Assembly: GCF_004359195.1 (NCBI RefSeq) | Contig: NZ_CP037954.1 | Span: 434,001 to 498,000, forward strand | Direction: 5' to 3' | Length of the DNA: 64,000 nucleotides | From: Chryseobacterium salivictor | GTDB lineage: Bacteria; Bacteroidota; Bacteroidia; Flavobacteriales; Weeksellaceae | Shown here: in pieces, positions 1 to 47,044 of the stretch | How the letters are laid out: each line of letters starts with the position of its first letter | Position numbering within the stretch: the stretch's first letter is position 1 | The notes under the pieces: model-generated | What the model was told of the DNA's origin: nothing | Databases searched by the model: none | The model's input: only the letters and a program-made list of their open reading frames with translations | Translations under genes and position numbers: made by a program

Positions 1-328
1 GCAGATCAGAATACAGGCAGTACAAACCTTACAGTCCCTGGAAAACCCTTCTACTGTAAATGATCTTACCGCATCTTATGCGAATCAGACAACAGACGTT
101 CAGGTTGAAATCATAAAGGCTTTAAAAATGGCAAAAGACCAAAGTTCTACAGATTTTTTAAAAACACAACTGATTGAGCATCCTTTTCCAAAGTTAAAAA
201 TCTTCGCGGCCGAAGCTCTTTTCGCGCTCGGCCAGGAATCTTTTTTAATCAGTCTGGCAGAAGACGGATCTGCTCCGGAGCAAATTATCCAAATTATTAA
301 ACACTCAATGCAGGAAAGGATATGTTAG
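1..328 (+). CDS. HEAT-repeat protein, 5' end outside window
   Basis: The reading frame is open from base 2 to the stop at 326-328, so only the last 108 residues are visible. They form repeated amphipathic helices, including segments such as IRIQAVQTLQSL and KLKIFAAEALFALG, which look like HEAT repeats. No catalytic motif is seen. The stop overlaps the start of the next gene by 7 bases, so the two are probably translationally coupled. A scaffold role in assembling the large glycosyltransferase next door is an inference. The N-terminus, and any signal or membrane anchor, lies outside the window. Confidence 0.75.
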   Translation, partial: QIRIQAVQTLQSLENPSTVNDLTASYANQTTDVQVEIIKALKMAKDQSSTDFLKTQLIEHPFPKLKIFAAEALFALGQESFLISLAEDGSAPEQIIQIIKHSMQERIC

Positions 329-3300
329 CGTTTTCACAGATCATTTATGAACTTATCATCTGGCTGTTCCTATTGTATGGAACAGCGGTATTTCTCGTTT
401 ACGGATGGATCGGAATTTATGCGCTCGGTGCTGTTATCCGATACAAAAAAGAGAATACTTTTACCGATTACAGCATTATCGCATCTAACCCGAATGCGCT
501 CACTTTCAGCGTTATTGCTCCCGCTTATAACGAAGGCATGACCATCGTAGAGAATGTAAGATCTCTTTTGTCTCTCTATTATCATAACCTGGAAATCATC
601 ATTGTAAATGATGGAAGCAAAGACGATTCGATATTAAAACTGATTGAGGCTTATGAACTTGAAGCAGTCTCTTTTTTTGTACAGGGTGAAATAGAAACCA
701 ATAAGATCCGCGAAGTTTATAAAAGCAAAAACCCCGCCTTCAAAAAATTAATTATCGTAGACAAAGACAATGGCGGTAAAGCAGATGCGCTGAACGTCGG
801 AGTCAATATATCTTCCGGTGAGTATCTTGTCTGTATCGACGTAGACTGTATTCTGGAACAGGACGCGATCTTGAAATTAGCAAAACCTTTTCTGGAACAA
901 ACCGATAAAAAATTGATTGCCTGTGGTGGAATCATCCGTCTGGCCAATAACTGTAAAATAGAAAATGGCAAAGTCACCGACATTAATATTCCCAAAACAC
1001 TGTTAGGAAGAACCCAGGCTTTAGAATATATCAGAGCTTTTGTCTTAGGGCGAATGGCCTGGTCACGCGCTTCAGGATTAATTTTAATTTCAGGGGCTTT
1101 CGGTGTTTTTGACCGAAAAATAGTTCTCGCCTGTGGAGGTTACGACCGGAAAACCGTTGGCGAAGATATGGAGTTGGTGGTCCGTATGCGAAAGTATATG
1201 GAAGAACAAAACGAACCCTACGAAGTTATCACCATTCCCGATCCTTTGTGCTGGACCGAAGCACCGGAAACAAAGGATATTCTAAAAAAACAGCGAAACC
1301 GCTGGATGCGTGGCACCATGGAGACGCTGTGGAAGCACCGTAAATTAATGTTTAATCCAAAATATGGAAAACTGGGAATGATCAGTCTTCCCTACTGGTT
1401 TTTTTTTGAATTCCTGGGCCCGCTGGTTGAATTTTTAGGTTATGTTATTTTTATTGTTTTTTTGATTTTAGGAATTATCAACTGGCCTTTCTTTATTATT
1501 TTATTCGCTTTGGTTATTTCATCAGGATTTCTTTTTTCGATCTATGGTATTTTGGTAGATCTCTTAAGTCACCAGGTTTATGCTAAAAGGAAAGATTTCC
1601 TCGCCTTAATCGGTACCGCCCTTTTAGAACCGTTCTATTTTCATCCTCTGGTGGTTAAAGCAGGAGTGAGCGGGTTTATCGATTATTTTAAAAAATCCCA
1701 CACTTGGGGCGAAATGACGAGACAGGGCTTTCATCAGAACCATCAGAATTTACCGTTCAAAAAGCGGGTGTGGGCAAAGCTCCAGCTTGGGCTTCATCAG
1801 TGGGGCCTATTTGCAGGTGTCTTTTTACTGCTGTTTTCAGTGGGAACCGTTTCAGAGTGGATTTGGTACCGACATACTTTTCAAACGCTGAACAGTCCAA
1901 TGCTCGGCGAACATCTTTTACTGAATAATCTGATATTTGTATTAAAATTGATAATGGGTTCTGGGCTCATTTATTTAATTTTAAATTTCCTGAAAGAAAG
2001 CTGGGCGAAAACTTTAATCGTCCTCACCTTCACCCTCGTCATTGTCACCCACTACCTTTTATTCATTTATTTTTCAGAATCTCATAATTTATTAGGTGCC
2101 GATATTCTGTATTACAGTAAAGCTGAAATGAAGCAGATTTTAGAGGCAAGCGGAATGCTCAGTTATAAAAACTTTGCCTTACTGGGAATTTTAGTTACCC
2201 TCTCTTTCATTCCTTTCTGGTTCGCTTCTAAATCCTCTTTTAAACCCAAATATGTTGGCGCAGTATTTTTAGGTCTCGGAGCAATCAGTTTTTCTGTCCC
2301 TAATGATATGCTGCTGTCAGATCATTCAAAAGGTTTAAATGAATTTGATCAGAACGCCGCGAAAAGCAAATGGGCTTATTTTTTAAATTCTAACATCGAT
2401 AACTTCATCAGTGAACATCCGGAATTAATTGCTTTTGGTGGTGATTCAAATAATTTTGAAATCAATTCGGGGATGCTCGACAAATCGTTCCCATTTTGGC
2501 GAAAAGAAAATACCCCGGACTTTTTAGGCTCGTATCTGAACAAATCTGAAAAAGTACCGAATCTTGTTTTCGTCCTCGTCGAAGGTTTAGGGCATGCCTA
2601 CAGTTCGCCGAACGGCTATGTCGGGAACTTCACGCCTTTCATCGATTCACTCGCAGGCAAAAGCCTTTATTGGGAAAATAATTTAAGTTCCACCGGCAGA
2701 ACATTTGGCGTTCTACCTACGATTACAGGTTCATTACCTTTCGGAAAAAACGGCTTTTTGGAAATAGAAAAAACGCCCGACCATTTCAATCTGTACACTG
2801 TTTTAAAATCAAACGGATTTGAAACAGGTTTTTTCTATGGCGGCAACAGTGCTTTTGACCGTATAAAAGAATTTCTGGAATACAGCAAAGTCGATAATAT
2901 AATAGATCAGTTTTCATATGATGCACCCTATCAAAAATTGCCGGCGAGCGTGGGCGGCGAAAGTTGGGGCTATGAGGATCAGGCTGTTTTCGGAAAAATG
3001 CTGCAGGTTCAGAAACCATTGGTAAAACCGTATTTCGATATTATTCTTACTTTATCAACGCATAATCCGTTTTTAATTAATAATGCTCCTTATTACGAGA
3101 AGTTGTTTACGCAACGGGTGAATTCAAATCAACTGTCAAACAAGCAGAAAAGATGGGCGCTGGATAACAAAAAGCAGTTGGTTTCAGTATTAAATCTGGA
3201 TGATGCATTACATGATTTTTTTAAAAGTTACCGAAAACGCGAAGATTTTAATAATACCATTTTTGTGATCACCGGTGACCACAGTATGCCGGAAATCACG

Positions 3301-3762
3301 CTGGAATCGAAAATAGACCGCTACCATGTTCCTTTGTTGGTGTATTCTCCTCTGCTAAAGGAGTCCAAACATTTTAGAAATATCGTAAGCCATTTTGATG
3401 TGGCACCTTCGATTCTGGCCTATTACAGAGAAAATTATACTATTTCGACTCCGTCTACTGTTACCTGGGTGGGCAGAGGTCTTTCAGAAAAACCAAGAAC
3501 TGACCAATTGAGGATTCCATTAATGCAGAGTAAAAATCAACTGATCGACTACGTTTACGGAAAATATCACCTGCAAAATAACCAACTTTTACTTTTAAAT
3601 AATCTGCAGGAAAATGGTATAAATAACCAAGCAGCTTTTAACAAAGCCAACGGGAGTTTCAAAGAGTTCAAAAATATGAATTCTCAGTTTTACAGCACTA
3701 AAAAGCTGATGCCGGATTCCGTGATCTCCAGCTTCATGAAAAAAACCCGATCGAACTTTTAA
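322..3762 (+). CDS. Fusion of GT2 glycosyltransferase and LTA-synthase/sulfatase-like phosphotransferase
   Basis: This 1146-residue polytopic membrane protein has two catalytic modules. After an N-terminal membrane helix comes a processive GT-A domain: APAYNE at 66-71, NDG at 96-98, DVD at 173-175, GED at 280-282 and QRNRW at 324-328. These are the usual D, DxD, ED and QxxRW signatures of cellulose, PNAG and hyaluronan synthases. About eight membrane helices follow (roughly 350-700). Residues 745-1100 form an alkaline-phosphatase-superfamily domain with VEGLGH (Glu754), a TGRTF stretch (Thr794 is the likely nucleophile by analogy with LtaS) and TGDHS (Asp986, His987). The first module should polymerise a glycan on cytosolic UDP-sugar. 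The second should act outside the membrane as a phosphoglycerol or phosphoethanolamine transferase or a sulfatase. The sugar and the donor are unknown. Confidence 0.85.
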   Translation: MLAFSQIIYELIIWLFLLYGTAVFLVYGWIGIYALGAVIRYKKENTFTDYSIIASNPNALTFSVIAPAYNEGMTIVENVRSLLSLYYHNLEIIIVNDGSKDDSILKLIEAYELEAVSFFVQGEIETNKIREVYKSKNPAFKKLIIVDKDNGGKADALNVGVNISSGEYLVCIDVDCILEQDAILKLAKPFLEQTDKKLIACGGIIRLANNCKIENGKVTDINIPKTLLGRTQALEYIRAFVLGRMAWSRASGLILISGAFGVFDRKIVLACGGYDRKTVGEDMELVVRMRKYMEEQNEPYEVITIPDPLCWTEAPETKDILKKQRNRWMRGTMETLWKHRKLMFNPKYGKLGMISLPYWFFFEFLGPLVEFLGYVIFIVFLILGIINWPFFIILFALVISSGFLFSIYGILVDLLSHQVYAKRKDFLALIGTALLEPFYFHPLVVKAGVSGFIDYFKKSHTWGEMTRQGFHQNHQNLPFKKRVWAKLQLGLHQWGLFAGVFLLLFSVGTVSEWIWYRHTFQTLNSPMLGEHLLLNNLIFVLKLIMGSGLIYLILNFLKESWAKTLIVLTFTLVIVTHYLLFIYFSESHNLLGADILYYSKAEMKQILEASGMLSYKNFALLGILVTLSFIPFWFASKSSFKPKYVGAVFLGLGAISFSVPNDMLLSDHSKGLNEFDQNAAKSKWAYFLNSNIDNFISEHPELIAFGGDSNNFEINSGMLDKSFPFWRKENTPDFLGSYLNKSEKVPNLVFVLVEGLGHAYSSPNGYVGNFTPFIDSLAGKSLYWENNLSSTGRTFGVLPTITGSLPFGKNGFLEIEKTPDHFNLYTVLKSNGFETGFFYGGNSAFDRIKEFLEYSKVDNIIDQFSYDAPYQKLPASVGGESWGYEDQAVFGKMLQVQKPLVKPYFDIILTLSTHNPFLINNAPYYEKLFTQRVNSNQLSNKQKRWALDNKKQLVSVLNLDDALHDFFKSYRKREDFNNTIFVITGDHSMPEITLESKIDRYHVPLLVYSPLLKESKHFRNIVSHFDVAPSILAYYRENYTISTPSTVTWVGRGLSEKPRTDQLRIPLMQSKNQLIDYVYGKYHLQNNQLLLLNNLQENGINNQAAFNKANGSFKEFKNMNSQFYSTKKLMPDSVISSFMKKTRSNF

Positions 3763-4997
3763 AACTTTTTGGTATATCCAAGAGAAAAATCATACTGATT
3801 TCCCTTTGTTTTAGGCAAATATTCTGTATTGTAATACATCGCAGAAATAGAGAACAGGTTTGTTTTTTGCACCGCAAAATTATATTCTCCGCCAATTTTG
3901 AAAGTTTTCAGTTTGTAGATTTCGTTTTCCAATAAATTGCTGAGATAACTTTCTGGGCTGATGCCGGTTCCGATTTGAAAAGCAAAATAATCCGTAGCTC
4001 CTGTGGTATAATAGCGAACCGTCCCCGTATAAGACTGAGAAATATTATCATTATCCGGCGTAATATAGGTCCTTAAATTAAACCAGAAATTCTTGTAATA
4101 TTTTCCTACAGATGCCGTATACATCCAAATATTATTACTAAAATAAAGTTGTCTGTAGCCTACTTCAGCTTCATAACTTTTGGGAAGATTCGCATTTAAA
4201 GAAACACCGCTTCTAAATTTCGGAAAGATTCCGACGTCATTGGAATAGCCCGCGCCTACATACAGATAAAACATTTTCGATAACTTCGGATAAGCCTCAA
4301 GTTCAAACTGAGTGCCGCTTGATGCAAATTTATTGGCGTAATTCCCTTTCAGAATAACCGACCCGATTGGCGTAACCCTTTTATAGCTGAGTCCTACAAT
4401 ATGCCAGTCATCATCAAACTGTTTATCAAAATGAGAAAAATTATAGGCAATACCCATGGCATTTTTAGAAGTAAAATCATTTATTTTAATGGAAAGAGCT
4501 CTGGCTTCTGTATTTTTGGGATTAATTCGTATAAGAGTATTGACAGCCTTCTCAGCGTCTGCGTAATTCGAATTATTAAAATCCACTTTCCCCTTCAACA
4601 ATAAAAGCGCTTCGGATTGAGGATGGTACTCCAGTCCTTTATTCAGGATTTCAATTGCTTTATCATTTTGGTCGTTCCAATATTCCAGAGAAGCGTATGC
4701 TATAAAAAAATCTTCATCACGAACTTCTTTTTTCTCAAGTCCATCAAACACAGCTCTTGCTGAACTTAAATCATTAGTCCACGTGTAAAGACGGCCTAAG
4801 AAAACAGAAATGTCGGTATAATCCGGTGCCTTTTCCAGCGCTTCCTTTGTGAGTTTAATAGCGGCGGTATAATCTTTCTGCTCAAAAGCAGCGTTCCGCG
4901 CTTCACTGAACAATTCATCAGCACTTAAATTTTGCTGGCTGTACAGTGCAAAAGGAAATAACAATACCATTAAAAAACCAAGACAATTTTTCATCAA
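3759..4997 (-). CDS. YaiO-family TPR and outer-membrane beta-barrel protein
   Basis: This 412-residue protein starts with a signal peptide ending near LYSQQ. Residues about 20-175 are TPR-like helical repeats (for example YTAAIKLTKEALEKAPDY and KAIEILNKGLEYHPQSEAL). Residues about 180-412 alternate aromatic and polar strands and end in KKF, a typical barrel C-terminus. TPR plus barrel is the plan of PgaA and BcsC exporters, but this barrel is smaller and matches the YaiO type. It converges on the glycosyltransferase fusion with a 4-base overlap, which supports a shared function: the outer-membrane exit or anchor for the polymer. Functional assignment is inferred from context. Confidence 0.8.
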   Translation of the reverse strand: MMKNCLGFLMVLLFPFALYSQQNLSADELFSEARNAAFEQKDYTAAIKLTKEALEKAPDYTDISVFLGRLYTWTNDLSSARAVFDGLEKKEVRDEDFFIAYASLEYWNDQNDKAIEILNKGLEYHPQSEALLLLKGKVDFNNSNYADAEKAVNTLIRINPKNTEARALSIKINDFTSKNAMGIAYNFSHFDKQFDDDWHIVGLSYKRVTPIGSVILKGNYANKFASSGTQFELEAYPKLSKMFYLYVGAGYSNDVGIFPKFRSGVSLNANLPKSYEAEVGYRQLYFSNNIWMYTASVGKYYKNFWFNLRTYITPDNDNISQSYTGTVRYYTTGATDYFAFQIGTGISPESYLSNLLENEIYKLKTFKIGGEYNFAVQKTNLFSISAMYYNTEYLPKTKGNQYDFSLGYTKKF

Positions 4998-5244: not shown

Positions 5245-6267
5245 ATGAAAAATCCAACTTTTATTCGCCTCACCGATAAAGGAATATACTGCATTCCGGG
5301 TAAATTCTACATTGATCCCTGGAAACCCGTTGATCTGGCCGTAATTTCTCACGGGCACGGTGACCACGCACGTTGGGGAATGAAAAAATATTTGTGTCAT
5401 CGGTTTACGAAGCCCATTTTAAAACATAGAATTGGGGAAGATATTGAAATTCAAACGGTGGAATATGGAGAAGAAACTATTATTAATGGAGTAAAAATTT
5501 CCTTACATCCTGCCGGACATATCATCGGATCGGCGCAGATCAGAATGGAGTACAAAGGTTATGTGATTGTCTTTTCCGGAGATTATAAAACAGACGACGA
5601 CGGATTGTCAACGCCATTTGAATTGGTGAAATGCAATGAATTTATCACCGAAAGCACTTTTGGACTACCAATTTACAACTGGTTAAAACCGCAGGAATAT
5701 TCAGAATTAATGCAAACCTGGGTTCAGCAAAATCGCGAAAACGGTAAAACGTCTGTCTTCATTGGTTATTCTTTAGGAAAAGCCCAACGGATTATGAAAT
5801 CGATAGAAGGCAGAGGAAAGATTTTCGTTCATCAGTCGATCGGTAAACTGAATGAGGGAATGGAATCGGTCGGGATCGATTTACCCGAATATGAAACGCT
5901 GAATTTTCAGGAGAGTTTAAAATCAACCAACGGCGAAATCGTGATTTTACCGCCCGCATTATTTGATTCCAACATCATAAAAAAAATACCGAATCGTGCC
6001 ACCGCGATCTGTTCCGGCTGGATGCAGGTTCGGGGTTCCAGAAGGTGGCGCTCTGCGGATGCCGGATTTGCAATTTCCGATCACGCAGACTGGAACGGAT
6101 TAATTGAAACCGTGAAAGCCACCGAAGCCGAAAAAGTTTATGTCACCCACGGACAAACCGCCGTATTTTCTAAATATTTAAATGAAATCGGAATCAATGC
6201 CGTAGAATTAAAAACCATTTTCGGAGATGAAGAAACCACCGAAAAAGAACTGATAGAAACTAAATGA
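5245..6267 (+). CDS. Ligase-associated DNA exonuclease, metallo-beta-lactamase/beta-CASP fold
   Basis: The 340-residue protein has the metal site of MBL nucleases: HGHGDH at 36-41, His92 (HPAGH), Asp113 (SGDYK), the beta-CASP SDHADW at 278-283 and His302 (VTHG). It resembles the exonuclease that is always found beside an ATP-dependent ligase and Lhr-type helicase in bacteria, and should trim DNA ends during repair. Its stop overlaps the ligase start as ATGA, so the two are coupled. A Bacteroidetes-like promoter may lie in the AT-rich stretch at about 5205-5230, but I cannot assign it firmly. Confidence 0.9.
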   Translation: MKNPTFIRLTDKGIYCIPGKFYIDPWKPVDLAVISHGHGDHARWGMKKYLCHRFTKPILKHRIGEDIEIQTVEYGEETIINGVKISLHPAGHIIGSAQIRMEYKGYVIVFSGDYKTDDDGLSTPFELVKCNEFITESTFGLPIYNWLKPQEYSELMQTWVQQNRENGKTSVFIGYSLGKAQRIMKSIEGRGKIFVHQSIGKLNEGMESVGIDLPEYETLNFQESLKSTNGEIVILPPALFDSNIIKKIPNRATAICSGWMQVRGSRRWRSADAGFAISDHADWNGLIETVKATEAEKVYVTHGQTAVFSKYLNEIGINAVELKTIFGDEETTEKELIETK

Positions 6268-7844
6268 AAGATTTTGCCCAACTCATCAATGCGCTCGACA
6301 GCACCAACAAAACAACCGCGAAAGTAGAGGCGATGGTTTCTTACCTGAACACCGCAGATGCCAATGACAAGTTATGGTTCCTAGCTTTATTTACCGGCAA
6401 AAGACCGAAAAGACCGGTAAACACTAATCTTTTAAAACAATGGGCTTTAGAAATCACACTGCTTCCGGAGTGGCTTTTTATAGAATCGTATGCTGCCGTA
6501 GGCGATCTGGGCGAAACATTATCACTAATCCTTCCCAACGCAGAAAACCAAATCGATAAACCGTTAACACAATGGATGACCGAATTGACTGCCTTAAAAG
6601 ACCAAACCGATGATGAAAAGAAAAAGTATGTCCTGGAATCCTGGAACGGTTTGAATCATGTGGAACGATTCATCTTTAACAAATTAATTGGCGGAAGTTT
6701 TCGAATCGGAGTTTCTAAAAAACTGTTAATCAATGCACTGTCTAAATATTCCGGTATTGAAACCAATATTCTGATGCACAGCATTATGGGAAAATGGAAA
6801 ATCGAAGATAAGAATTTTGACGATTTAATTCTGGGAACCCATATCAATCCTGATGCTTCCAAACCTTATCCTTTTTGTCTGGCGTATCCTTTAGAAAAAG
6901 AAATTCAGGAACTGGGCGACCGGAAAAACTGGCAGGCAGAATTTAAATGGGACGGCATCCGCGGGCAGTTCATCAAGCGAAATGAAGAAATATTTATTTG
7001 GTCCCGCGGTGAAGAATTAGTCACAGAACAGTTTCCCGAAATTGTTTCCGCGTTAAAAGAAGTGGAAGGTAATTTTGTAATCGATGGTGAAATTCTCGTG
7101 GTAAAAGACGACAGAGTTCTTAATTTTAATGAACTGCAGAAACGCCTGAACCGAAAAACAATTCCTAAAAAAATGCTGGAGGAACTTCCTTGTCATATTT
7201 TTGTTTATGATATTTTGGAACTGGAATTTGAGGATCTGAGAGAAAGGTCTTTGTCTGAAAGACGATTGCTTTTAGAAAGTTTACTTGTAGATGCTCCACT
7301 CAAAAACATTAAAATATCAGAGATTATTACAACCGGCACTTGGGAAGAATTAGCCCAAATCAGAGAAAACTCCCGGGACAATAATTCTGAGGGTTTAATG
7401 TTAAAAGAAACAAATTCGCGATACCACGCCGGCAGAAAAAAAGGCGACTGGTGGAAATGGAAAGTCAGTCCGCTCACGATTGATGCGGTATTAATTTATG
7501 CTCAAAAAGGGTCCGGCCGCCGAAGCAGCTACTATACTGATTATACTTTTGCAGTAAAAAATGATGATAAACTCGTCACCATTGCGAAAGCTTATTCAGG
7601 TTTGACGGACAAAGAAATTATGGAAGTCAGCAAGTTTGTGAACAAAAACGCGATCGAAAAATTCGGGCCCGTCCGAACCGTAAAACCTGAACTGGTTTTT
7701 GAAATCGCTTTCGAAGGAATCGGTTTCAGCAGCCGGCATAAAAGTGGCGTGGCATTGCGCTTCCCGCGAATCGTTCGTTGGCGGCGGGACAAAACAGCCG
7801 ATCAAATTGATGACCTCGAGGAAATTAAAAAACTGATTACTTAA
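6264..7844 (+). CDS. ATP-dependent DNA ligase of the ligase-associated repair cassette
   Basis: This 526-residue protein is an ATP-dependent DNA ligase. The N-terminal DNA-binding domain (about 1-200) is followed by the adenylation domain with the nucleotidyl lysine in KWDG at 228-231. Later motifs include DGEILV and EGLMLK, then an OB-fold domain ending in the basic RFPRIVRWRRDK stretch. It should seal nicks in repair in addition to the essential NAD-dependent LigA, which is not in this window. The start overlaps the exonuclease stop by 4 bases. A 150-base gap separates it from the helicase, so the helicase may have its own promoter. Confidence 0.92.
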   Translation: MKDFAQLINALDSTNKTTAKVEAMVSYLNTADANDKLWFLALFTGKRPKRPVNTNLLKQWALEITLLPEWLFIESYAAVGDLGETLSLILPNAENQIDKPLTQWMTELTALKDQTDDEKKKYVLESWNGLNHVERFIFNKLIGGSFRIGVSKKLLINALSKYSGIETNILMHSIMGKWKIEDKNFDDLILGTHINPDASKPYPFCLAYPLEKEIQELGDRKNWQAEFKWDGIRGQFIKRNEEIFIWSRGEELVTEQFPEIVSALKEVEGNFVIDGEILVVKDDRVLNFNELQKRLNRKTIPKKMLEELPCHIFVYDILELEFEDLRERSLSERRLLLESLLVDAPLKNIKISEIITTGTWEELAQIRENSRDNNSEGLMLKETNSRYHAGRKKGDWWKWKVSPLTIDAVLIYAQKGSGRRSSYYTDYTFAVKNDDKLVTIAKAYSGLTDKEIMEVSKFVNKNAIEKFGPVRTVKPELVFEIAFEGIGFSSRHKSGVALRFPRIVRWRRDKTADQIDDLEEIKKLIT

Positions 7845-7994
7845 TTTTTAAAACTACGAAAGATCTCATAATTTTTTAATGATAATTTTGTTAAAGCAAG
7901 ACGTACGGCACCATAAAAAAAAAAGATTTTCCCTTTATTTTAATCGTGAAATATAAGAGTGAAACTGGTGTTTGAAAATATATTTAAATTCTGA

Positions 7995-10448
7995 ATGACC
8001 GAAAAATTTAAAAATTCCACAGGTTTCCAGATCATCGAAAAATGGATGGAAGACAAAGACCGGGAACCATTTGGTTTTCAGTCTGAAACATGGTATAAAT
8101 TTTCCCAGAATTATTCGGGAATGGTGATCGCGCCAACAGGTTTTGGAAAAACATTCTCGGTTTTTTTAGCCGTCGTCATCGATTATATGAACAATCCGGA
8201 CCACTACAAATCCGGCATGAAACTGTTGTGGATCACTCCACTGCGCGCTTTAGCAAAAGATATTGCGAAAGCGATGAGTGAAGCTCTGGAAGAAATCGGA
8301 TTAGACTGGGAAGTTGCTGTGAGAAATGGTGATACACCTAAAGAAATCCGGGCGAAGCAGACCAAAAAAACGCCTGATATTTTAATCATAACGCCCGAAA
8401 GTCTGCATCTGCTTTTAGCACAAAAACAACACCCGAAATTTTTTAAAAATCTTCAGTGCATTGTTGTTGATGAATGGCACGAGCTGCTCAGTTCGAAACG
8501 CGGCGTGATGACCGAACTCGCCGTTTCAAGGATATTTAGTTATCAGAACAAAATAAAAATCTGGGGAATCACAGCAACCATCGGAAATCTGGACGAAGCC
8601 ATGGAAGTCCTTATTCCCTACCCGATTAAAAAAACTAAAATTGTTGCCAAAGAAAAAAAGAAAATCGAAATCAAATCTGTTTTCCCCGATGATGTCGAAG
8701 TTTTGCCTTGGGCAGGACATTTAGGAACCAAACTCGCTGATAAAATAATTCCCATTATTCTGGAAAGTCAAACAACTTTGGTGTTTACCAATACCCGAAG
8801 TCAGGCCGAAATGTGGTATCAGGTTTTGCTGAATGAACATCCCGATTTTGCGGGACAGATCGCGATTCATCACAGTTCCGTGGATAAAGATATCCGGATC
8901 TGGATTGAAGAAAATTTATCTTCAGGATATTTAAAAGCCGTCATCTCCACCTCATCGCTGGATTTGGGCGTAGATTTCAAACCCGTTGACACCGTTATTC
9001 AGATCGGCTCCAGTAAAGGAATTGCAAGATTTTTACAACGTGCCGGACGAAGCGGACATTCGCCTTTCGAAACTTCAAAAATCTATTTTGTTCCAACCCA
9101 TTCTTTAGAACTTATTGAAGTTGCGGCTTTGAAGGAAGCCGTGAAACAAAATAAAATCGAACCGCGCGAACCTCTGGTTTTATGTTATGATGTTTTACTT
9201 CAATTTGTTTTAACACTCGCAGTTGGAGATGGTTTTGATGAAAAAGAAACCTTCAGCCAAATTACTCAGACGAATGCTTTTAAAGAGTTGTCACCTGAAG
9301 AATGGAACTGGATTTTAACGTTCATTACGGTTGGCGGAAAATTAAAAAACTACGAAGAATATCATAAAGTTGTAATTGAAAACGGTCTGTATAAAGTTAT
9401 TTCACGCAGAATTGCAATGCTGCACCGGATGAATATTGGCGCGATTGTAAGCGATTCCATGTTGAAAGTAAAGTTTTTCGGCGGCGGATATATCGGCATG
9501 ATCGAAGAGTATTTTATTTCTAAATTAAATAAAAATGATAAGTTCGTTTTGGCCGGAAGAGTTCTTGAAGTTTCCCACGTCAAAGAAATGACCGTGTACG
9601 TTCGGAACTCCAGTGGAAAAGGAATCGTCCCGAGTTATTTGGGCGGAAGATTACCTTTATCCTCCTATTTGAGCGGTTTTCTGAGACAAAAACTTTCAGA
9701 ATCTCTCAACGCGAAATCTTCTGAAAAAGAACTGCGGTTTTTGCATCCGCTTCTGGTCAGCCAACAGGAAAACTCACATATTCCAAGCGAAAACGAGTTT
9801 CTGGTCGAACGCATCAAAACCCGCGAAGGCCATCATCTGTTTATGTATCCGTTTGAAGGCAGATTGATTCACGAAGTGATGTCGGCCTTGGTTGCCTATC
9901 GAATTTCCAGGATTTCACCCATTTCTTTTTCAATTGCGATGAATGATTATGGTTTTGAATTATTTTCGAAAATCGAAATTCCGTTGAGTGAAGAAAATAT
10001 TTCAGAAATATTATCCAAAGAACATTTAATCCGCGATGTAATGGCGTCAGTCAATTCAACGGAAATGGCCAGGCGGAAGTTTCGGGATATCGCAGTAATT
10101 TCTGGAATGGTCATCAGGACGTATCCGGGACAGCAGAAAAATAATAAAAATTTACAGTCATCTTCAGGTTTAATATTTAATGTGCTGGAGGATTACGATC
10201 CCGAAAATTTATTATTTAAGCAGGCATATTCCGAAGTTTTTTTTCAGCAGATCGATGAAGCGAGATTGGTCGAGGCCTTTGACCGTATTCATAAAAGTGA
10301 GATTATTATTAAAAATTCAAATACCTTTACTCCCTTAAGTTTTCCTATTAAAGTTGACAGTCTGCGCCAAAGTTTGAGCAGCGAAGATCTGAAAGCCCGT
10401 ATTCTGAGAATGAAAATGGAAGCCATGAAAAAGAAAATGAAAAAATGA
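7995..10448 (+). CDS. Ligase-associated Lhr-core DEXH-box helicase
   Basis: The 817-residue protein is a superfamily 2 helicase of the Lhr core type. It has Walker A APTGFGKT at 46-53, DEWH at 159-162, a TAT motif in GITATIG, and motif VI QRAGRSGH at 348-355. A winged-helix and DEAD-assoc-like C-terminal half follows. It should be an ATP-dependent 3'-5' DNA helicase or translocase working with the neighbouring exonuclease, ligase and endonuclease. Its stop overlaps the start of the phosphoesterase by 4 bases (ATGA). The start at 7995 fits a normal N-terminus about 45 residues before Walker A. Confidence 0.92.
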   Translation: MTEKFKNSTGFQIIEKWMEDKDREPFGFQSETWYKFSQNYSGMVIAPTGFGKTFSVFLAVVIDYMNNPDHYKSGMKLLWITPLRALAKDIAKAMSEALEEIGLDWEVAVRNGDTPKEIRAKQTKKTPDILIITPESLHLLLAQKQHPKFFKNLQCIVVDEWHELLSSKRGVMTELAVSRIFSYQNKIKIWGITATIGNLDEAMEVLIPYPIKKTKIVAKEKKKIEIKSVFPDDVEVLPWAGHLGTKLADKIIPIILESQTTLVFTNTRSQAEMWYQVLLNEHPDFAGQIAIHHSSVDKDIRIWIEENLSSGYLKAVISTSSLDLGVDFKPVDTVIQIGSSKGIARFLQRAGRSGHSPFETSKIYFVPTHSLELIEVAALKEAVKQNKIEPREPLVLCYDVLLQFVLTLAVGDGFDEKETFSQITQTNAFKELSPEEWNWILTFITVGGKLKNYEEYHKVVIENGLYKVISRRIAMLHRMNIGAIVSDSMLKVKFFGGGYIGMIEEYFISKLNKNDKFVLAGRVLEVSHVKEMTVYVRNSSGKGIVPSYLGGRLPLSSYLSGFLRQKLSESLNAKSSEKELRFLHPLLVSQQENSHIPSENEFLVERIKTREGHHLFMYPFEGRLIHEVMSALVAYRISRISPISFSIAMNDYGFELFSKIEIPLSEENISEILSKEHLIRDVMASVNSTEMARRKFRDIAVISGMVIRTYPGQQKNNKNLQSSSGLIFNVLEDYDPENLLFKQAYSEVFFQQIDEARLVEAFDRIHKSEIIIKNSNTFTPLSFPIKVDSLRQSLSSEDLKARILRMKMEAMKKKMKK

Positions 10449-46693: not shown

Positions 46694-47044
46694 AAATGTT
46701 TGAATTTGTGGGAACTCGTCCCGATTAATTAAGGTTGCAAAGATAATGAAATATTCTCATTCACCAGTCCTAATATTTAAATAATTACAGCCTAAGAATC
46801 TTTTTTTTCAGGAGTCGGGAACCTGCTTTCCGCTGTATCTTTTATTCCGCTCAAGCTCCATAAAAGGATGCCGCTGCAATCAGGACTATGAAGGACGTTT
46901 CGAAAGAAATTTAGGTTCTAAACTGAGATTTACACCCTTAGAAAAAATAGTAAAATGCAATTTAACTGTAAGATCAAAGAAGACAATTCTTTTCTCTTCA
47001 GAACATTTCATTATTAAATTTATACTTCGTGTACTTTTAATTCT
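46694..47044. other. 351-base gap with repeat copy E
   Basis: The left end should hold the rpsP promoter. Most of the middle is copy E of the dispersed element in reverse orientation. No gene is supported. Confidence 0.45.
46803..46910 (-). repeat. Dispersed palindromic intergenic element, copy E (reverse)
   Basis: Read on the minus strand it has CCTGATTGCAGCGGCATCC, a T run, a short hairpin centre with GAGCTTGAGCGGAA, an A run and CAGCGGAAAGCAGG. The layout matches copies A-D, though the sequence is a divergent subtype. Confidence 0.55.

Follow-up and report, generated by a model that had tools for sequence, protein, structure and literature searches.

A predicted glycan synthase fused to an LtaS-type transferase in a conserved, phosphorelay-linked locus of Chryseobacterium salivictor and other Bacteroidota

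The 64,000-nucleotide stretch of Chryseobacterium salivictor DNA analyzed here (contig NZ_CP037954.1, positions 434,001 to 498,000; hereafter the window) is part of a 3.14-Mb single-contig genome (G000:C1:434001-498000) and opens within a locus of five genes, which encode a hybrid histidine kinase, a REC-only regulator, a membrane-anchored HEAT protein, a fusion of a family 2 glycosyltransferase (GT2) with an LtaS-type transferase, and a YaiO-type TPR/barrel protein (table 1). In the 1146 amino acids (aa) of the fusion, Pfam recognizes a GT2 domain (PF00535, aa 63–192, 71 bits) and a Sulfatase domain (PF00884, aa 746–1033, 98 bits). The HEAT protein is 358 aa long and carries an N-terminal membrane segment according to hydropathy; its gene, which begins before the first letter of the window, shares 7 bp with the fusion gene, whose 3' end in turn shares 4 bp with the convergent YaiO gene. 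The DNA immediately preceding the window (stretch L004) encodes the kinase, a 1299-aa protein with GAF, PAS, HisKA, and HATPase domains, two REC stretches, and an HPt domain, and between the kinase and the HEAT region lies the 118-aa REC-only protein, which has no output domain. An earlier note on this DNA had described a single chain with complete GT2 motifs and a complete alkaline phosphatase (AP) superfamily site, overlapped by a HEAT gene and facing a convergent TPR/barrel gene, and all of these points were borne out. The three-gene locus that it proposed stands as far as the HEAT, fusion, and YaiO context is concerned, which is conserved in 75 of 76 loci, and was drawn too small, the hybrid kinase and the REC-only regulator being part of it.

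Table 1. Features of the fusion locus within the window (positions count from the first letter of the window)
Feature	Position	Strand	Evidence or conservation
HEAT-repeat gene, 3' end (last 108 codons)	2..328	+	PF13646, 41 bits; whole gene at L004 9252-10328
Fusion gene, GT2 synthase + LtaS-type transferase	322..3762	+	single open reading frame, 1146 aa
GT2 synthase half, aa 1–480: N-terminal membrane segment, catalytic domain, membrane helices	322..1761	+	Pfam, NCBIfam, hydropathy
DxD motif, D173-V-D175	838..846	+	D173 and D175 invariant, 74/74
ED motif, E281-D282	1162..1167	+	invariant, 74/74
QxxRW motif, Q324-R-N-R-W328, processive GT2 signature	1291..1305	+	Q324, R327, and W328 invariant, 74/74
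Second membrane domain, aa 481–710, belonging to the transferase half	1762..2451	+	hydropathy, AlphaFold2 model
VP1736/LtaS-like catalytic domain, aa 711–1146	2452..3759	+	PF00884, fold, profile
E754, metal ligand by homology	2581..2583	+	74/74 sequences
T794, nucleophile by homology	2701..2703	+	74/74 sequences
D986-H987, metal ligands by homology	3277..3282	+	74/74 sequences
YaiO-family protein, TPR repeats + predicted outer-membrane barrel	3759..4997	-	PF19413, 225 bits; TPR_19, 74 bits; TIGR04390, 197 bits

By scanning contigs with the fusion as query, we obtained 76 loci from the best 80 of 90 matches, under the titles Chryseobacterium, Kaistella, Sphingobacterium, Flavobacterium, Myroides, Paenimyroides, and Planobacterium and from one Flavobacteriales metagenome-assembled genome. 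Because the fusion itself served as query, the agreement among these loci partly reflects kinship. An open reading frame (ORF) of at least 1100 aa was present at 73 of them, and a local assembly artefact was thus rejected as the source of the fusion. The three remaining loci are L055, at a contig end (1044 aa to the end), L057, with an apparent frameshift, and L073, in which the AP domain is lost; a length filter of 1100–1160 aa left these three outside the set of 74 sequences (the window protein and 73 relatives) in which the invariance of the motifs was scored. Median identity of the 73 relatives to the window protein is 83% in the GT part, 50% in the second membrane domain, and 64% in the catalytic domain. 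All five genes were found at 75 loci, the exception being the end of a 4.7-kb contig, and at 68 of the 76 the HEAT and fusion genes share 7 or 4 bp. The YaiO gene is convergent and downstream in 70 loci; in five, all titled Sphingobacterium, it stands upstream of the kinase and is co-directional. The residues expected to carry the phosphate are likewise conserved, both in the kinase (counting that of the window, the HisKA His in 73/73, the first REC Asp in 70/73, the second REC Asp in 73/73, and the HPt His in 72/73) and in the REC-only protein (Asp51, 76/76). The fusion is real, conserved, and functionally coupled by its genome context.

The helices that separate the two catalytic domains are more than a linker. 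Hydropathy and an AlphaFold2 model of aa 481–1146 (mean predicted local distance difference test [pLDDT] 82.4, predicted TM-score [pTM] 0.73) both place five long helices in aa 481–710, with two short ones between the third and the fourth, and this makes the protein two whole enzymes in one chain. We take this five-helix domain to be of the kind carried by LtaS/EptA-type enzymes, and the modeled combination of such a domain with an AP domain is that of the BcsG, EptA, and MCR enzymes. In a model of the full-length fusion (mean pLDDT 74.5, pTM 0.55), the transferase half was good and the GT half moderate.

The DxD, ED, and QxxRW motifs mark the GT half as a processive-type GT2 synthase of the HAS/PgaC/BcsA/NfrB kind, as far as sequence can tell. 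Its best NCBIfam match, PgaC_IcaA (TIGR03937), reached 124 bits against a cut-off of 422.3, which does not make it a PgaC/IcaA equivalog, and a Foldseek comparison of the whole fusion model with hyaluronan synthase 8sne gave E 4.5e-10 and TMq 0.15. The same genome encodes a second fusion of a synthase with modifying domains, a 1160-aa protein composed of GH18, polysaccharide deacetylase, and GT2 domains (L130 6533-10015 [-], G000:C1 about 2364532-2368014), whose GT2 is 37% identical to aa 142–400 of the window protein. The claim that known systems keep the decorating enzyme separate was therefore too strong.

The transferase half is nearer to VP1736 and LtaS than to EptA according to sequence profiles, which matched VP1736 at E 1.4e-29, LtaS2 at 6e-13, LtaP at 4.5e-10, and LtaS at 1.4e-9, and matched EptA only weakly (5fgn, E 0.01; 4kav, presumably also EptA, E 0.0026). 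Fold comparison of the full model led to the same families (VP1736 3lxq, Z 36.4, 377 residues, root-mean-square deviation [rmsd] 3.0 Å; LtaS 4uor, Z 33.2, 377 residues, 3.2 Å), as did the transferase half alone (Z 34.7 and 32.2, respectively), followed by periplasmic YejM at Z about 30 and sulfatases at Z about 27 and below. With this closest fold and the Glu, Thr, Asp, His tetrad in place, the domain falls in the LtaS/VP1736 branch, and it is not LtaS proper, for which NCBIfam NF053595 gave 33 bits against 970. The earlier note had proposed a comparison with BcsG, LtaS, and MCR-like enzymes; LtaS and VP1736 are close, and MCR-1 appeared once, at rank 24 among the best 50 Foldseek matches of the half (cryo-EM chain 9nww, aligned with the membrane and catalytic parts over 604 columns, TMq 0.44, rmsd 9.8), whereas EptA was weak and BcsG was absent from the best 60 of 118 profile matches and from the best 50 fold matches. 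The likeness to YejM raises a further reading, in which the half would be a non-enzymatic, lipid-sensing regulator that tunes the synthase in the manner of YejM/PbgA. PbgA 6xlp does align over both the membrane and the periplasmic parts (Z 29.2), at an rmsd of 16 over 453 residues that reflects a different orientation of the parts. Such proteins have, we assume, lost the catalytic threonine; the expected loss is not seen in the fusions, where T794 and the other catalytic residues are kept in all 74, and among the 25 rows of A3, the transferase profile introduced below, active-site loss is confined to two split relatives. We consider a regulatory role very improbable.

Judged by its genes, the window organism should make phosphatidylethanolamine (PE): the one CDP-alcohol phosphatidyltransferase gene recognized in its genome (PF01066) scored 90 bits with pssA, under the cut-off of 107, against 26 with pgsA, and its Psd gene exceeded the cut-off with 142 bits. 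In this genome no match reached the PgsA cut-off, although a divergent enzyme is possible. Because PssA-like and Psd genes are present and no PgsA is recognizable, phosphoethanolamine (pEtN) seems likelier than glycerol phosphate as the group transferred in this organism. MdoB/OpgB puts glycerol phosphate on periplasmic glucans, and the fusion could do the same to its own polymer, all the more as VP1736, LtaS, LtaP, and phosphoglycerol transferase I are its closest solved or curated families. We nevertheless regard glycerol phosphate as unlikely. The window genome has no recognizable phosphatidylglycerol (PG) synthase, and the LtaS residues that we take to bind glycerol phosphate (H347, W354, and R356) correspond, in a profile alignment with 2w8d, to Y839, D846, and a variable residue 848; they are not kept, and LtaS chemistry is therefore not transferable to the fusion. 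The wider sample described below points the same way. A single PF01066 gene was present in 14 of 38 genomes with the transferase, and in the 10 that were scanned (the window genome and nine others, G095, G134, G182, and G111 lying outside the scan) the best match was always PssA. Among second PF01066 copies of other genomes (11 stretches, nine proteins), none reached the pgsA cut-off, two having pgsA as a weak best match (G103, 45 bits; G126, 34 bits). The donor may differ in family codes f17, f24, f31, and f36, because their genomes have three to five PF01066 matches each. A lipoteichoic acid-like polymer, with a glycolipid anchor made by GT2 and polyglycerol phosphate made by the AP half, was set aside as less probable, given the processive signature of the GT2 and the lack of a recognized PG synthase.

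The two modules were then followed through 395 Bacteroidota genomes with the profiles A2 (GT) and A3 (transferase); only the best four GT and the best two transferase candidates per genome were scored, which makes copy numbers lower bounds. A2 detected at least 106 places in 94 genomes, each above 380 bits, and A3 at least 40 places above 650 bits in 38 genomes, 12 weak places (140.6–158.2 bits, 11 genomes) having been dropped before the count. The GT module was present in all 38 transferase genomes, so that the transferase never occurred without a synthase, and of the 40 transferase copies, 13 were fused (including that of G383, where both matches lie in one 1202-aa frame, L139), 23 lay within 12 kb of the GT, three were on another contig, and one was far away. 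Free splitting, or halves in unrelated contexts, which would have spoken against a coupled pair, was thus not seen, separate halves being mostly neighbors. Within 7 kb of 37 more distant GT loci, we found a HEAT gene in 35, a REC-only gene in 34, a YaiO gene in 31, a separate transferase in 19, and a fused one in 6; these loci were hand-picked from 40 stretches, with a bias to high scores and transferase genomes, and L129, L130, and L145, having no such GT, were left uncounted.

This linkage bears on two other roles for the transferase. Its substrate might be a different one, for instance lipid A, the target of its fold relatives EptA and MCR, and the fusion might serve only joint production; the module is indeed seen both fused and separate. 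Its linkage to one synthase in 38/38 genomes, together with more than one fused lineage, points to a shared product, and we consider this role quite improbable. Alternatively, the transferase half might end or anchor the chain (e.g., by attaching the glycan to lipid), or trim it as a phosphodiesterase or sulfatase, without decorating any sugar. The AP superfamily includes hydrolases, sulfatases being among the fold matches above, and a module that always accompanies a synthase, the reverse not being true, would suit a release or anchoring step too. Sulfatases, however, mature a Cys or Ser to formylglycine, and the nucleophile position is Thr in 74/74 fusions; the membrane domain, moreover, resembles those of lipid-head-group transferases. 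We therefore hold termination, anchoring, or trimming to be improbable, though less so than an action on lipid A.

A single clade of all fused forms was rejected for both halves (p-AU 1.5e-51 for the transferase half and 2.1e-64 for the GT half). In these trees (quick searches with SH-aLRT supports; L122 was omitted from the second GT tree, its long branch having met the f2/g4 fusions), the fused L133, L135, and L138, of family code f2 and genus code g4, fall among separate transferases, apart from the Chryseobacterium and Sphingobacterium fusions. Since neither half unites the fused forms in a single clade, fusion probably arose more than once; two events are the simplest reading of the trees, and one old fusion followed by several splits is the alternative. 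The f2/g4 fusions also have a longer C-terminus, which the YaiO profile matches weakly (34–48 bits) as though it held a TPR domain; Pfam, run on L133 and L138, gave no TPR at E 0.001. C-terminal extensions occur in separate transferases as well, namely L115 9029-11458 (+), in which Pfam shows TPR, and other proteins of about 780–850 aa. Two other separate transferases, L112 7301-9637 (-) and L113 8334-10757 (+), each beside a GT gene, are possible pseudoenzymes. A 389–395-aa protein with an N-terminal membrane segment also recurs beside GT/transferase loci (L124 11048-12217 [-] and L131 5843-7030 [+], with similar starts in L117, L118, L121, L125, L132, L137, and L139); it had no Pfam or NCBIfam match in the scanned copies (two copies and one copy) and was not seen at the window locus.

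Control of the synthase is suggested by its neighbors. GGDEF (PF00990) was detected in 203 of the 395 genomes and in none of the 12 fusion genomes, with a control search matching 8 of 14 known genomes. Given this lack of GGDEF in 12/12 fusion genomes, the phosphorelay may stand in for control by cyclic di-GMP (c-di-GMP). From the gene order and the missing output domain, we infer that the REC-only and HEAT proteins act directly on the synthase.

We observe, then, a fusion with intact motifs, linked genes, a transferase found only with a synthase, more than one fused lineage, and fusion genomes in which no GGDEF was detected. Our favored reading, to which we give moderate confidence, is a synthase-dependent glycan pathway in which the transferase adds a phospho-group to the emerging polymer, a phosphorelay switch replaces c-di-GMP, and YaiO exports the product. 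The reactions, donor, polymer, pore role, and REC-HEAT step that we infer would be as follows. The GT2 half, to judge from its family motifs, would polymerize a glycan from nucleotide sugars and thread it across the inner membrane. By the chemistry of the LtaS/MCR superfamily, the transferase half would take a phospho-head-group from a membrane phospholipid via a Thr794-bound intermediate and place it on the polymer during its emergence, the group being most likely, in the window organism, pEtN from PE. Fusion, or adjacency in other lineages, would hold the transferase at the synthase exit, much as BcsA recruits separate BcsG subunits. The YaiO TPR/barrel protein, as a putative pore, would let the polymer cross the outer membrane. 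Phosphate from the hybrid kinase (HisKA-REC-REC-HPt) would reach the REC-only protein, and this protein, acting together with the HEAT protein anchored in the membrane, would switch the synthase in place of c-di-GMP.

Seen in this way, the locus is a variant of synthase-dependent glycan secretion and not a new kind of system. The nearest working model is BcsA-BcsG, and the nearest model for the whole pathway is NfrB-NfrA. Escherichia coli BcsA, according to PMC11379886, draws in three copies of BcsG, whose pEtN comes from lipid; the likeness would extend from the lipid-derived pEtN to a GT2 synthase with an AP-superfamily membrane transferase near the polymer exit and a TPR outer-membrane subunit (PMC11379886). 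BcsG is a separate subunit with Ser278, whereas the window protein is one chain with Thr794 and a VP1736/LtaS-like sequence, in a group of 12 fusion genomes with no detected GGDEF. The E. coli NfrB-NfrA system for the NGR glycan likewise has a QxxRW GT2 synthase and an outer-membrane TPR/barrel protein encoded by overlapping genes, and differs in that its operon description, as cited, names no transferase (PMC8669469), and in having no phosphorelay. In the E. coli yaiO-yaiX-yaiP-yaiS locus, yaiO is accompanied by the gene for the GT2 YaiP (E 3e-12 and 25% identity against the GT half), by a deacetylase gene, and by an acyltransferase gene that IS2 interrupts, although a BLASTP comparison of the E. 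coli and window YaiO proteins was not significant (E 0.15). With respect to PgaC/PgaA, which make poly-N-acetylglucosamine, the GT half resembles PgaC yet remains far under the PgaC cut-off. LtaS, VP1736, and phosphoglycerol transferase I share fold and catalytic tetrad with the transferase half; unlike them, the window protein is fused to a GT2, lacks the LtaS residues for glycerol phosphate, and belongs to a genome with no recognized PG synthase. The GH18-polysaccharide deacetylase-GT2 fusions also unite synthase and modifying domains in one chain, and differ in the nature of the latter.

Several findings weigh against the proposed pathway or some part of it. The GT half of the full-length model is of only moderate confidence. 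As to the donor, a PgsA could escape detection, given that even the PssA-like protein fell short of its own cut-off (90 bits against 107), and the domain is closer by sequence to LtaS than to EptA, contrary to what pEtN would suggest. The locus is also patchy: of nine sampled genomes of the window's family code, f1, six have both modules and three (G281, of the window's own genus, G277, and G331) have neither at the thresholds used. Moreover, 56 of the 94 GT genomes have no transferase at the threshold used, and Chryseobacterium defluvii (L073 8001-10106 [+]) keeps the kinase, REC, HEAT, GT, and YaiO genes, with a fusion that stops at 701 aa, its catalytic domain gone. Because of these two observations, synthesis of the polymer need not depend on the transferase, which is an accessory. 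In L112, the active-site Thr, Asp, and His are missing, and L113 has Ser for Thr and Ser for Asp; since the transferase is lost (L073) or decayed (L112 and L113) while the rest of the locus stays, the polymer would be useful without it. Finally, GGDEF is present in 29 of the 94 GT genomes, including 6 of the 38 with the transferase, and in family code f18, a distant GT homolog (33–35% identity) stands beside a GGDEF gene, less than 3 kb from the match in at least seven of nine GT genomes (G044, G048, G201, G217, G233, G354, and G362). Because these homologs, like that of G328 (family code f36), which also lies less than 3 kb from a GGDEF match, adjoin GGDEF, the data suggest that lineages have replaced one control input with another.

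A bolder proposal, which we put forward tentatively, is that of a widespread Bacteroidota surface-glycan pathway that operates in cells without c-di-GMP. In it, a two-component phosphorelay would control a processive synthase directly, by way of a lone REC protein and a HEAT adaptor in the membrane, and an LtaS-type enzyme that has switched to PE would modify the polymer as part of the same protein chain; the transferase would have been joined to the synthase more than once, and a related synthase would elsewhere be wired to GGDEF. Among the titles and abstract openings of the open literature searched, a scope outside which most subscription papers lie, neither the fusion nor the REC-HEAT-GT2-YaiO locus was described. 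How Bacteroidota that lack c-di-GMP control their surface polymers is, in our judgment, an open matter, for which the locus offers a compact model, in which a single protein should both build a polymer and modify it and a phosphorelay may be linked directly to a synthase; the fused, separate, and absent transferases constitute a natural series for comparing function.

No tRNA was found in the 64-kb window. The ORFs that follow the locus at 5245-10448 (+) presumably encode a metallo-beta-lactamase exonuclease, an ATP-dependent DNA ligase, and a large helicase, and are unrelated to the fusion. A Flavo-1 RNA (RF01705) lies at 46815-46891 (-), with a score of 55.8 bits against a gathering score of 42.

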